DNA of 35,469 nucleotides, taken from assembly GCF_004569295.1 (NCBI RefSeq), contig NZ_SPQC01000029.1:1-35469 (forward strand). The letters are read 5' to 3'. A program made the position numbers and the translations under genes. Shown in pieces: positions 10,397-12,834 of the stretch (within the stretch, counting starts at the first letter, position 1; each line of letters begins with the position of its first letter). The notes beneath the pieces were generated by a model. It was given only the letters and a program-made list of their open reading frames with translations. It made no database searches and had not been told where the DNA came from. This DNA comes from Rothia nasimurium (lineage in GTDB: Bacteria > Actinomycetota > Actinomycetes > Actinomycetales > Micrococcaceae).

Positions 10397-11208
10397 ATAA
10401 GCCCTTCGGCCAGCATCTGCACACCCTCGGACGCCCCGCGGTGGGCATGTGGGTCTGCTCAGGTTCACCGGTGGTCGCCGAAATCTGCGCCGGTTCCGGC
10501 CTGGACTGGCTACTCATTGACGGGGAGCACGGGGTTGCCAGCCTTGAGACGGTGCAGCAGCTATTGCAGGTGACGGCTGCCTACCCGGTGCAGGACATGG
10601 TGCGCCTTCCCTCCCTGGATGTTGTCGCTGTTAAGCAGTTCTTGGACGCCGGTGCCCAGAACCTGCTCATTCCCATGGTCGATACTGCCCAGATGGCTCG
10701 GGACGCGGTCGCTGCTACCCGTTACCCTCCGGCGGGGGTGCGCGGGGTGGGGTCTGCCCTGTCTCGTTCAGCCCGCTGGGGCGGGGTGCCCGGCTACCTG
10801 ACCGAGGCCGAGAAGTATATTTCGCTTTTTGTGCAGATCGAGTCGGCGGCAGCCGTGGCCAATGCTGAGGAGATTTGCGCGGTGGACGGCCTGGCCGGGG
10901 TCTTCATCGGGCCCTCAGACTTGGCTGCCTCCATGGGGTTGCTGGGCCAGCAGAACCACCCGCAGGTGGTGGACGCCGTAAAGCGGGTTATCGAGATAGC
11001 CCGTGCCGCCGGGGTGAAGGTAGGCGTGAATGCCTTCGACCCGGCGCAGGCAGAGGACTATCTGGCTGCCGGCGCTGATTTTATTCTGGTGGCCGCTGAC
11101 GTGCAGCTCCTGGCCTTGGAGTCTAAGAAGCTGGCTGCTCGCTTCGTCCAGGATGCCACCCCCGGCTCCGCCGATGTAGGCTACTTTGGAGGAACCGAAC
11201 GGTCATGA
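10381..11208 (+). CDS. hpaI: 4-hydroxy-2-oxoheptanedioate aldolase (class II)
   Basis: A 275-residue HpcH/HpaI TIM-barrel aldolase that splits 4-hydroxy-2-oxoheptanedioate to pyruvate and succinic semialdehyde. The E. coli HpaI residues H45, R70, E149 and D175 are present with a constant +5 shift: H50 (DGEH), R75 (VRLP), E154 (QIES) and D180 (GPSD). The GTG start at 10381 is inside the end of hpaH and is preceded by TAGGAG at 10368-10373. It is the last pathway gene of the operon. Immediately after its stop the sequence turns into the truncated end of an unrelated hydrolase gene on the other strand. Confidence 0.93.
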   Translation: MSLRLDKPFGQHLHTLGRPAVGMWVCSGSPVVAEICAGSGLDWLLIDGEHGVASLETVQQLLQVTAAYPVQDMVRLPSLDVVAVKQFLDAGAQNLLIPMVDTAQMARDAVAATRYPPAGVRGVGSALSRSARWGGVPGYLTEAEKYISLFVQIESAAAVANAEEICAVDGLAGVFIGPSDLAASMGLLGQQNHPQVVDAVKRVIEIARAAGVKVGVNAFDPAQAEDYLAAGADFILVAADVQLLALESKKLAARFVQDATPGSADVGYFGGTERS

Positions 11209-11856
11209 GCGCCGCAAAATTGTTGAGCGGATCAGCAAGGTGGTCTTCCACCACATCAGCGTCAACTGCTACCCAATCGGTGGGGCCGGCATGGTCGCCA
11301 CATCGTTTTGTCATTCCAGCAAAGACCGGGTCAGCTAGCTCTCCTGCTGGACTCGCTGGGTCAGCCGCAGCTAGCGCAGCTGCTAGCGGGTAGTGTTCTA
11401 CCCCGTACATGCCAGCGGGGACGCCGTCATGGATGAGCCCCAGGAACGCCCATATATGGCATAGGGGACGTCCGGAACGATTTCTTGGGCGCGTTGTTGG
11501 AGGGTGGGTTCGTCCGAGACATAGACCTGCCAACCGCCTTCTCCAGTGCCTTGCCATATGCCGCTGGCTACGCAGGTGGCCCTATGGCCAACGTGATCTG
11601 TGGCAGCTACTGCATATCCGTGGTCAAGGAGGGTACTGATGAGGTGGAGGTAGCGGTGTGAATGCTTGCCCAGTCCGTGAATGACGTGGACGATGCCTCG
11701 GGGTTGACTTGCCGGTACATACACCCCAGGCATGGACGTCGTCGCGTCCGTTTGCGGAGGTAAAGGTGAATTCGTGTAAATCCATAATTGATACTTCTTT
11801 GTATGGGGTGTTGACAGTAGGTATTGTACCCCCCTATGAAAAGTATTCTGGAGCAC
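11205..11856 (-). pseudogene. Alpha/beta-hydrolase (S33 lysophospholipase-like) remnant, frameshifted and C-terminally truncated
   Basis: The 11398-11856 part encodes an N-terminal half with GIVHVIHGLGKHSHRY (oxyanion region), DHVGH and the nucleophile elbow GRSWGS, then runs into a stop. A different frame at about 11205-11440 continues with family-like sequence: FAGMTKRCGD, then WVAVDADVVEDHLADPLNNF. About 40 residues expected between the two halves are missing, and the C-terminal third with the catalytic Asp and His is absent because the homology stops where hpaI ends (about 11205). I conclude the gene is dead. In intact relatives the enzyme hydrolyses monoacylglycerols or similar esters. 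The break at 11205-11208 probably marks a rearrangement endpoint of the hpa module. Confidence 0.7.
11811..11840 (+). promoter_or_regulatory. Candidate promoter at the edge of the AT-rich island
   Basis: A consensus TTGACA (11811-11816), 18-bp spacer and TATGAA (11835-11840). It points into the AT-rich island and could drive the secreted-protein gene with a leader of about 175 nt. It overlaps the 5' end of the hydrolase remnant, which runs the other way. Confidence 0.4.
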
Positions 11857-11929
11857 ATCGTGGCGAAATGTTCCTGGATCCCTCGCGTAGAGTTTTATGT
11901 AATGTCGTAAAATTTTTTTGGGATAACTA

Positions 11930-11958
11930 TTGACTCAATTTTTCATTGTATGTAGTGT
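11930..11958 (+). promoter_or_regulatory. Candidate promoter of the secreted hydrophobic protein gene
   Basis: TTGACT (11930-11935), 17-bp spacer and TAGTGT (11953-11958). Transcription would begin within the 8-bp tandem repeats that start at 11962, placing them at the 5' end of the message. Confidence 0.4.
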
Positions 11959-11961
11959 TGA

Positions 11962-11993
11962 AGCCCACAAGCCCACAAGCCCACAAGCCCACA
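11962..11993 (+). repeat. Four perfect tandem copies of AGCCCACA
   Basis: The 8-bp unit repeats at 11962, 11970, 11978 and 11986 without a mismatch, between a candidate promoter and the ribosome site of the secreted protein gene. Short perfect tandem repeats like this can gain or lose units by slippage. Here a change would alter leader length, not reading frame. Confidence 0.9.
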
Positions 11994-12024
11994 ATTGAAA
12001 ATCTCTTTCGAAGAAGGTGCGATG

Positions 12025-12546
12025 ATGCATTATTTAAAGAATTTTTTTATTGTTATATTGTCAGTTCTAATGCTTTTCTCTTTCTCGCCAGCGCAGGCGA
12101 GCAATAATTTTCTAGATGAAGGTTCTCGATATTCTACAATAAACATTTCTAGCAACCCGGTGTTTGATGCTAATGAAGACCATGGCGAGGCTCTTGGGGA
12201 AAAATTTTCTTCCATTGGAGAAGGTGAAAGCTTTTCTTTCTTTGCTGATGGCAGTATTTTCTCTGTAGAGAAAAAGTCAGGGAATATATTTGTTGAAACC
12301 ACTGCTTTATCTCTATATAAAGGTTCAATGCCATCCGCATCTTTTTGTGCAACTACTGTGGCAACAATAATTTTTGAAATTGGATCGGTTGCTTTGTTCG
12401 CTGCTGCGGCAACCATGGCTCCTGGTTCATTCTTAGTATTGGGAGGGATTGCTTTCAACTCCACACAGGTAGCTTATCTTGCTTCAGCGGCTGGCAGTTT
12501 TGCTGCGCTGCAGGCATATCTAGATTCACATTTTTGTCGGAGGTAG
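12025..12546 (+). CDS. Secreted protein with Cys-flanked hydrophobic C-terminus, unknown function
   Basis: A 173-residue protein. The ATG at 12025 is preferred to that at 12022 because AAGAAGG (12011-12017) is then 7 nt away. Residues 1-25 form a clear Sec signal peptide (a Lys near the start, a long Ile/Leu/Val/Phe core, cleavage after AQA). The mature part begins with a polar, acidic segment (26-105). It ends in a 60-residue Ala/Gly-rich hydrophobic region lying between just two cysteines, C108 and C171, with a CRR terminus. A disulfide could close the hydrophobic region into a loop. I recognise no family. The layout resembles secreted bacteriocin- or pore-former-like precursors, but that is a guess. 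The gene is far more AT-rich than its surroundings, with AT-ending codons, which indicates recent transfer. Two tiny membrane peptides follow directly. Confidence 0.8.
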   Translation: MHYLKNFFIVILSVLMLFSFSPAQASNNFLDEGSRYSTINISSNPVFDANEDHGEALGEKFSSIGEGESFSFFADGSIFSVEKKSGNIFVETTALSLYKGSMPSASFCATTVATIIFEIGSVALFAAAATMAPGSFLVLGGIAFNSTQVAYLASAAGSFAALQAYLDSHFCRR

Positions 12547-12548
12547 TG

Positions 12549-12671
12549 ATGTCTGATTCTGGATACCTGTACCTTGCTGTGTCCTGTTGTGCTATGTCAG
12601 TTATTTCCTTTTGTTTAGGTTATTTCCAACAAAGGAGGAACATTAAATGTGGTCTGTACTCGGAGGAATAG
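12549..12671 (+). CDS. Small membrane peptide (40 aa), unknown
   Basis: ATG at 12549, two bases after the preceding stop. The product has one hydrophobic segment (about residues 7-25, with four Cys) followed by a basic stretch (QQRRNIK). The last part overlaps the next small gene in another frame. Tight spacing suggests translational coupling to the secreted protein gene; without a family match its reality as a coding gene is only moderately supported. Confidence 0.45.
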   Translation: MSDSGYLYLAVSCCAMSVISFCLGYFQQRRNIKCGLYSEE

Positions 12672-12745
12672 CAATTGTTATCTGCCCCGTTTTCTCTTAC
12701 TGGCTGGGGGCTAAATTTGCAATGAAGCGACATCTGAAACCATAA
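12647..12745 (+). CDS. Small single-helix membrane peptide (32 aa), unknown
   Basis: ATG at 12647 preceded by AAAGGAGG at 12631-12638, the best ribosome site in this island, 8 nt upstream. It encodes a single transmembrane helix (about residues 3-25) with a basic tail (MKRHLK). A strong ribosome site on so short a frame, after a secreted hydrophobic protein, suits an immunity or accessory peptide, but this is inference from layout only. Confidence 0.5.
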   Translation: MWSVLGGIAIVICPVFSYWLGAKFAMKRHLKP

Positions 12746-12759
12746 AATCCGAACAGTAG

Positions 12760-12815
12760 GAAAGCAGGGCTATTGATGGAATATCTGTAAGGAAACCACC
12801 GTATACCCTGCTTTC
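12760..12815. repeat. Inverted repeat between the island and the paa operon
   Basis: GAAAGCAGGG (12760-12769) pairs with CCCTGCTTTC (12806-12815), and an adjoining TAT/ATA extends the stem. The enclosed loop is about 30 nt. It lies between the convergent ends of the small-peptide genes and paaG. There is no clear T-tract, so termination is possible but weakly supported; it could also mark an island edge. Confidence 0.45.
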
Positions 12816-12834
12816 TGGTTCTTATCTTAGAAAT

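Follow-up and report, generated by a model that had tools for sequence, protein, structure and literature searches.

A candidate membrane toxin-immunity cassette of Rothia nasimurium and its relatives on a plasmid and behind an RHS core

Organization of the cassette and its surroundings

The stretch of DNA analyzed here (the window) is a single contig of 35,469 b from the 2.69-Mb genome of Rothia nasimurium. Analysis of its base composition bears out the AT-rich island of the original prediction (about 40% GC versus 63%, sd 2.3, in the rest of the window): within the window, GC content reaches its minimum of 0.400 in the 800-b segment starting at position 11901, whereas the 645 segments of 800 b outside positions 11186–12827 have a mean of 0.630 (sd 0.023) and a minimum of 0.559. 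Three open reading frames lie here, a gene for a 173-residue precursor followed by two small ORFs (Table 1), in a variable slot between two convergent genes. The names of the latter, hpaI-like and paaG-like, were read from the sequence; the paaG-like gene matches PF00378.

Table 1. Features of the cassette and of the slot that contains it (window positions)
Feature	Position	Strand	Evidence or remark
Variable slot, 1,642 b, between convergent hpaI-like and paaG-like genes	11186..12827	.	blastn vs relatives
Alpha/beta hydrolase gene remnant, outside the cassette, same slot	11398..11856	-	PF12146, E 9.9e-16, model positions 2–91 of 239 only
Four tandem copies of octamer AAGCCCAC, leader region	11961..11992	+	
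Precursor gene, 173 aa; ATG 12025 (alternative ATG 12022), stop 12546	12025..12546	+	homologues found
Signal peptide, residues 1–25; cut expected after AQA	12025..12099	+	hydrophobic segment 1–19; AxA-type site by eye
N-terminal pro-region, residues 26–104, variable between relatives	12100..12336	+	structure prediction; comparison with plasmid copy
Toxin-type C-domain, residues 105–173, ASFC...FCRR	12337..12543	+	homologues, HMM/hhalign, predicted structure
Small ORF 1, 40 aa; one TM-like segment, then QQRRN; candidate immunity or accessory protein	12549..12671	+	
Shine-Dalgarno-like AAAGGAGG for small ORF 2, within small ORF 1	12631..12638	+	
Small ORF 2, 32 aa; one TM-like segment, basic tail (net +4); candidate immunity protein	12647..12745	+	
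Inverted repeat GAAAGCAGGG / CCCTGCTTTC 3' of the cassette, possible terminator	12760..12815	.	

The N-terminal hydrophobic segment of the precursor ends in AQA, and both its hydrophobicity and the AxA site, seen by eye, point to the signal peptide that had been claimed, here taken to be of the Sec type. The claim of a hydrophobic C-terminus enclosed by cysteines holds as well: the sole cysteines, C108 and C171, bracket a domain of 64 residues. The C-domain is rich in Ala and Gly, hydrophobic and of a net charge close to 0; most membrane-active bacteriocins differ from such neutrality. The two small membrane peptides that had been proposed correspond to overlapping ORFs, each with a TM-like segment, and the Shine-Dalgarno site attributed to the second of them is found 8 b before its start.

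None of the three proteins had been recognized from the sequence, and the precursor indeed matches no model in Pfam and NCBIfam (E≤1), PHROG or PADLOC; the PADLOC anti-phage defence models yielded 0 families for all three proteins of the cassette (E≤1). Neither a processing protease nor a transporter is found among the three ORFs and their two immediate neighbours.

AlphaFold2, run on the single sequence, gives a weak model for residues 26–173 (pLDDT 59.8), where one helix and three strands are predicted at low confidence in the pro-region before the C-domain. For the C-domain alone the single-sequence prediction reaches a pLDDT of 81.2 and places helices at its residues 2–16, 19–27, 43–52 and 56–68 with a hairpin between. 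Comparison of the predicted structures with solved structures gave no significant fold match, and this includes the saposin fold, against which the four helices and hairpin of the single-sequence model (mean pLDDT 81) were considered.

The slot was compared with other genomes of the genus. A 3.3-kb query matches 20 of 35 of them, including the own genome and one that matches in the cassette only (G028); the other 18 match at least one flank, and nine of them supplied the 10 segments that were compared. None of the 10 segments gives a blastn alignment within the 1,642 b; where they cover the flanks, the alignments are at 78–93%. In four of the nine relatives the slot measures merely 98–179 b and looks hairpin-like by eye; one relative carries an AbiEi/AbiEii pair, two carry different AAA_14/DUF4143 proteins and one an SLH protein, and in the ninth (G004) the slot is split between two contigs, one of which has a piece of a transposase. 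The slot is not toxin-specific, since it holds unrelated cargo in relatives. In the window it also holds the hydrolase remnant, beside which two frames (11126–11557 and 11627–11785) show no Pfam match and look by eye like further hydrolase pieces.

Scans for regulatory signals stayed at chance level: sigma-70-type promoters numbered 2 versus 2.2 expected, with zero on the + strand, and the terminator scan did not report the inverted repeat listed in Table 1. No Rfam element reached the gathering threshold. The octamers AAGCCCAC stand head-to-tail, preceded by the AT-rich upstream region and followed by the start of the precursor, and their copy number could vary by slippage.

Relatives of the cassette within the family

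A tblastn search of plasmids matched a single record, pSD9660c of Rothia sp. SD9660Na (Micrococcaceae), to which a 3,449-b contig of G028 (same genus) is identical base for base. The plasmid encodes a precursor of 170 aa and then ORFs of 35 and 31 aa, in the same order and with the last two overlapping alike; these are 50% and 63% identical to small ORFs 1 and 2 of the window, respectively. Searching with small ORF 2 by tblastn independently recovers the 31-aa relative (E 1e-3), which is unannotated there. The plasmid copy has no comparably strong Shine-Dalgarno site before its second small ORF. Identity between the two precursors is 28% through residue 103 (88 aligned codons) and 78% from residue 103 onward (68 codons): the C-domain is constrained and the remainder of the precursor diverges. 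Nucleotide differences at codon positions 1/2/3 amount to 16/6/44 in the C-domain, 14/10/24 in small ORF 1 (12/9/21 with the overlap excluded) and 9/3/16 in small ORF 2. Because the three frames recur in order on pSD9660c and differ mainly at codon position 3, the triad is more than a chance arrangement.

A profile built from five sequences (A4) was used to screen 395 genomes of the family (E≤0.001). Eight match and seven were accepted, namely the own genome, G028 (plasmid), G083, G214, G249, G277 and G144; a second genus of the family (g23) accounts for matches in 4 of its 18 genomes. The match in G036 (E 4e-4) was rejected as it covers just part of the pro-region, in a protein that on reading we take to be of the GreA type; a GreA match obtained for two A4 members (E 0.08) was ascribed to chance. 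Also left out as non-members were G019 and G022 (17 bits each) and G051, G168, G206 and G357 (E 0.002–0.005, sequences uninspected). Outside the family, matches at E≤0.01 occur in 6 of 396 genomes of the order and 3 of 394 of the class, and each time the own genome is the accepted one, five of the six and two of the three (E 0.002–0.009) being left out uninspected. Searching the order with the C-domain profile returned 1 of 297 genomes at E≤0.001, again the own genome. No homologue was gained from phages (tblastn), from plasmids with the protein of the g23 locus L008 as query, or through the genome-contig and viral-contig routes.

The three complete g23 loci (G249, G277 and G214) encode precursors of 166–167 aa followed by two small ORFs; those of G249 and G277 are 97% alike over 4 kb. 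In the five complete Sec-type precursors the two bracket cysteines are the sole cysteines outside the signal peptide, the span from Cys to Cys, both counted, is 64, 64, 63, 63 and 66 residues, and the second Cys lies 0–2 residues from the C-terminus. Whether homologues carry the small frames had been posed as a check of the original prediction, and they do: the closest relative, on pSD9660c, has both, and two small hydrophobic ORFs are present in all five complete Sec-type loci. Their sizes differ, 31–40 aa in the Rothia group vs 63–77 aa in the second-genus group (75–77 aa, then 63–67 aa), and the correspondence between the small ORFs of the two groups is one of layout. Three of the four distinct second-genus small ORFs measured have two TM-like segments; the first small ORF of L008 has no segment above the TM threshold. 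Upstream of the g23 precursors we noticed a conserved element, approximately CCTAC(A/G)AAAG(T/C)A(T/C)GAT(T/G)TACA (loci L006, L007 and L008; L028, 1795–1975, - strand), perhaps an operator.

The cassettes sit at different places. Besides the 3.4-kb plasmid and the hpaI-paaG slot, there is an insert of about 1.5 kb in G249 and G277, whose flanks lie 20–45 b apart in G214, G169 and G240, and another site in G214, different from that insert; the contigs that carry the four second-genus copies range from 178 kb to 3.6 Mb. Given these differing sites and the absence from relatives, the cassette is sporadic and tied to no single site, which is the occurrence expected of weapon genes, and it was presumably acquired horizontally. 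The gene of G083 (contig C20) is split into two parts that lie about 38 kb from each other, beside ORFs that look transposase-like by eye. The first small ORF is still open there while the precursor gene is broken, possibly a case of toxin lost and immunity kept.

The C-domain behind an RHS core

In a genome of a third genus (G144), the C-domain forms the entire post-core tip of an RHS-repeat protein, a 944-aa ORF in an open frame of 1,028 codons. This protein contains RHS repeats (E 2.2e-43) and a full match to RHS_assc_core at residues 802–877. Its core ends in DPSG-X17-DPSGL, a motif of the RHS cleavage type, and the tip of 67 residues follows directly, running from A-S-A-C to N-I-C; its cysteines are residues 4 and 67 (span 64). 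An A-S-x-C start is shared by all four Sec-type C-domains compared. Aligning A4 with the tip by hhalign covers S104 to C171 (E 4.9e-11), and the HMM match to the tip has an E of 6.2e-9; with an HMM built solely on the four Sec-type C-domains, the tip obtains 37.4 bits, the best of 20,000 tip shuffles reaching 13.8. The window precursor itself lacks RHS/YD repeats or core (Pfam, NCBIfam, E≤1), which occur only in its RHS relative. An ORF of 54 aa, whose product has one TM-like segment and a net charge of +9, starts 13 b after the RHS stop. Small hydrophobic ORFs adjoin the toxin-type domain in all five complete Sec-type loci and likewise after the intact RHS gene.

The arrangement that defines a polymorphic toxin, with the domain as a tip straight after the RHS core and a cleavage-type motif, was found in one intact protein, from a genome listed at 4% contamination and in one of the five genomes of its genus. 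A second RHS-derived copy of the domain on another contig of this genome (C37) is a fragment without the final Cys. Elsewhere in the same genome (L069, 12755–13114, - strand), a 119-aa ORF has at its end a hydrophobic stretch that is likewise bracketed by Cys but shorter (CAIALVGATIVVL...FARACTA).

Proposed function and competing explanations

The original prediction had read a bacteriocin/immunity or toxin system from gene layout. The relatives lend support to this reading: the sole one with a recognizable architecture is a protein of the RHS polymorphic-toxin type, and none with a known unrelated function was found. The homology to the RHS tip puts the toxin reading on much firmer ground than layout did, and we consider it likely that the cassette is a horizontally acquired toxin-immunity system made of a Sec-exported membrane toxin and small immunity proteins. 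The precursor would be exported by the Sec pathway and cut by a protease near A105; this position is proposed because in the RHS protein a cut is expected by motif right after DPSGL and the two proteins are alike exactly from there. A neutral peptide of 66–69 residues with four predicted helices, and with C108 and C171 probably joined by a disulfide, would thereby be released, insert into the membranes of related bacteria and, acting as an ionophore or pore, collapse the membrane potential. Until then the variable N-terminal region may keep the peptide inactive or guide its delivery, and one or both of the small membrane proteins could bind the toxin in the membrane of the producer and so confer immunity. 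As only one small ORF was noticed after the RHS gene, one of the two may suffice for immunity and the other may go together with the Sec form.

Several known systems resemble parts of this scheme. The Rhs tip of Tse5 from Pseudomonas aeruginosa is pore-forming and depolarizes membranes, and it is freed by a cleavage just after the second DPXG motif that is essential for toxicity (PMC10684867). As in toxins of this type, the domain of the window also occurs as a tip behind an RHS core with two DPXG motifs (PMC10684867), a small membrane-type ORF is adjacent, and membrane depolarization is proposed. Unlike RHS toxins, the window protein has no RHS shell and carries a Sec signal and a pro-region of about 80 aa instead; set beside Tse5 by description, the tip is distinct in its 66–69 aa with cysteines near both ends, and the motif spacing in the RHS relative is X17 instead of X18/X19. 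With the CDI ionophore toxins (PMC11630599) the cassette shares a small helical C-terminal membrane domain, a variable N-terminal part and small hydrophobic immunity candidates; the CdiI immunity proteins are small and very hydrophobic, of 72–100 aa vs 63–77 aa for the second-genus candidates. It differs from CDI in having no CdiA, four predicted helices and a hairpin versus five helices, and two small ORFs, which in Rothia are of 31–40 aa (PMC11630599).

Circular and leaderless bacteriocins are likewise small hydrophobic multi-helix peptides with small hydrophobic immunity proteins (PMC6131525), and the closed ends of the circular ones would find a parallel here if the disulfide forms. They are, however, without a disulfide, whereas the present precursor has a Sec signal (a hydrophobic segment and AxA site where leaderless bacteriocins have no leader or signal) and a neutral domain, and no family match to the DUF95 membrane protein or ABC transporter of circular-bacteriocin clusters was obtained among the three ORFs of the cassette. 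Toxin domains are in general exchanged through standalone cassettes (PMC3482391). The candidate appears to work like known toxin-immunity pairs, yet to fall, by the features tested, outside the SdpC, circular and leaderless bacteriocin families; in the absence of a model in Pfam, NCBIfam, PHROG and PADLOC, its toxin domain appears to define a new family.

One competing scheme is a cannibalism or signalling toxin like SdpC, in which a hydrophobic C-terminal part is cut out of a Sec precursor and acts on siblings. SdpC of Bacillus subtilis has a secretion signal and a C-terminal hydrophobic domain, from which a 42-aa product (C141–S182) arises that collapses the proton motive force (PMC6818787); the general plan, a Sec precursor with a C-terminal hydrophobic toxin segment, is indeed shared. 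The present domain is about 1.6 times as long as SDP, though, and conservation runs the opposite way: SdpC and YitM are alike over their N-terminal three quarters and vary in the toxin part (PMC6818787), while the window and plasmid precursors diverge in the former and keep the C-terminus. SdpA (PF17418), needed for SDP processing, is found in 0 of 1 own genome, the control search of 14 genomes detecting it in one, Bacillus subtilis. The precursor is also without any family match in Pfam and NCBIfam, libraries that may not hold an SdpC model, and we regard the scheme as improbable. Just as improbable, in our judgement, is a role in a mobile element, for instance in plasmid maintenance or exclusion, in which the 64-residue domain would serve as a membrane anchor or remodel membranes and the small ORFs would be its subunits. 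The hydrophobicity of the cassette parts and the copy on the 3.4-kb plasmid would suit such a role, but the long contigs that carry the four second-genus copies do not, nor do the signal peptide and the recurrence of a discrete C-domain at the tip of an RHS protein.

An intracellular toxin-antitoxin system, with the small peptides as antitoxins or type I-like toxins, would explain why a membrane-active candidate has small hydrophobic peptides next to it and recalls the AbiEi/AbiEii pair in the same slot of one relative. It is still less probable, as the toxin candidate has a signal of the cleavable type, a related tip sits on an RHS core and PADLOC gives no match. Least probable of all is that the cassette is functionless acquired DNA which has drifted since its insertion beside a decayed hydrolase gene: the neighbouring hydrolase remnant, the promoter scan that found none and the homologous gene in two pieces in G083 would agree with it, but all three frames are intact and differ from the plasmid copy with a codon-position bias.

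For the toxin-immunity reading, a broader generalization within one actinobacterial family can be offered tentatively, and we hold it to be somewhat doubtful. It is that one membrane toxin module, its ends joined by a disulfide rather than a peptide bond, moves between two weapons: a tiny, freely diffusing Sec bacteriocin, encoded on small plasmids or in variable slots of the chromosome, and a large RHS delivery protein that carries the module as its tip. Both would share the cleavage point (A-S-x-C), and immunity would come, in Rothia as in the RHS form, from one-TM proteins of 31–54 aa. If true, this toxin domain family, for which the libraries searched have no model, would link small secreted bacteriocins to RHS polymorphic toxins by one module and a shared processing point, and would predict an antibacterial peptide of 66–69 residues in Rothia and in a related genus. 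The family would also offer natural tests of whether a terminal disulfide can replace head-to-tail circularization and of how one-helix proteins of 31–54 residues give immunity. Among the open-licence papers listed, the titles and abstract openings yielded no description of such a system under Rothia bacteriocin plasmids, SD9660Na or Sec-dependent disulfide bacteriocins, nor under polymorphic RHS pore-forming toxins, Glutamicibacter bacteriocins or actinobacterial Rhs/ionophores; on SdpC- or streptococcin A-M57-type precursors they gave nothing pertinent besides the Sdp/Yit paper (PMC6818787).

A further locus came to our attention in another genome of the same genus, on a 4,974-b contig (L004) of which 28% is like the Rothia plasmid pSD9660a and for whose cassette no plasmid relative was found. 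Its positions 1453–2135 (also retrieved as L056) encode a protein of 171 aa, which starts like a signal peptide and has CSNNSLTC ahead of its hydrophobic end, together with an overlapping hydrophobic ORF of 80 aa, possibly a second, unrelated cassette of like layout.
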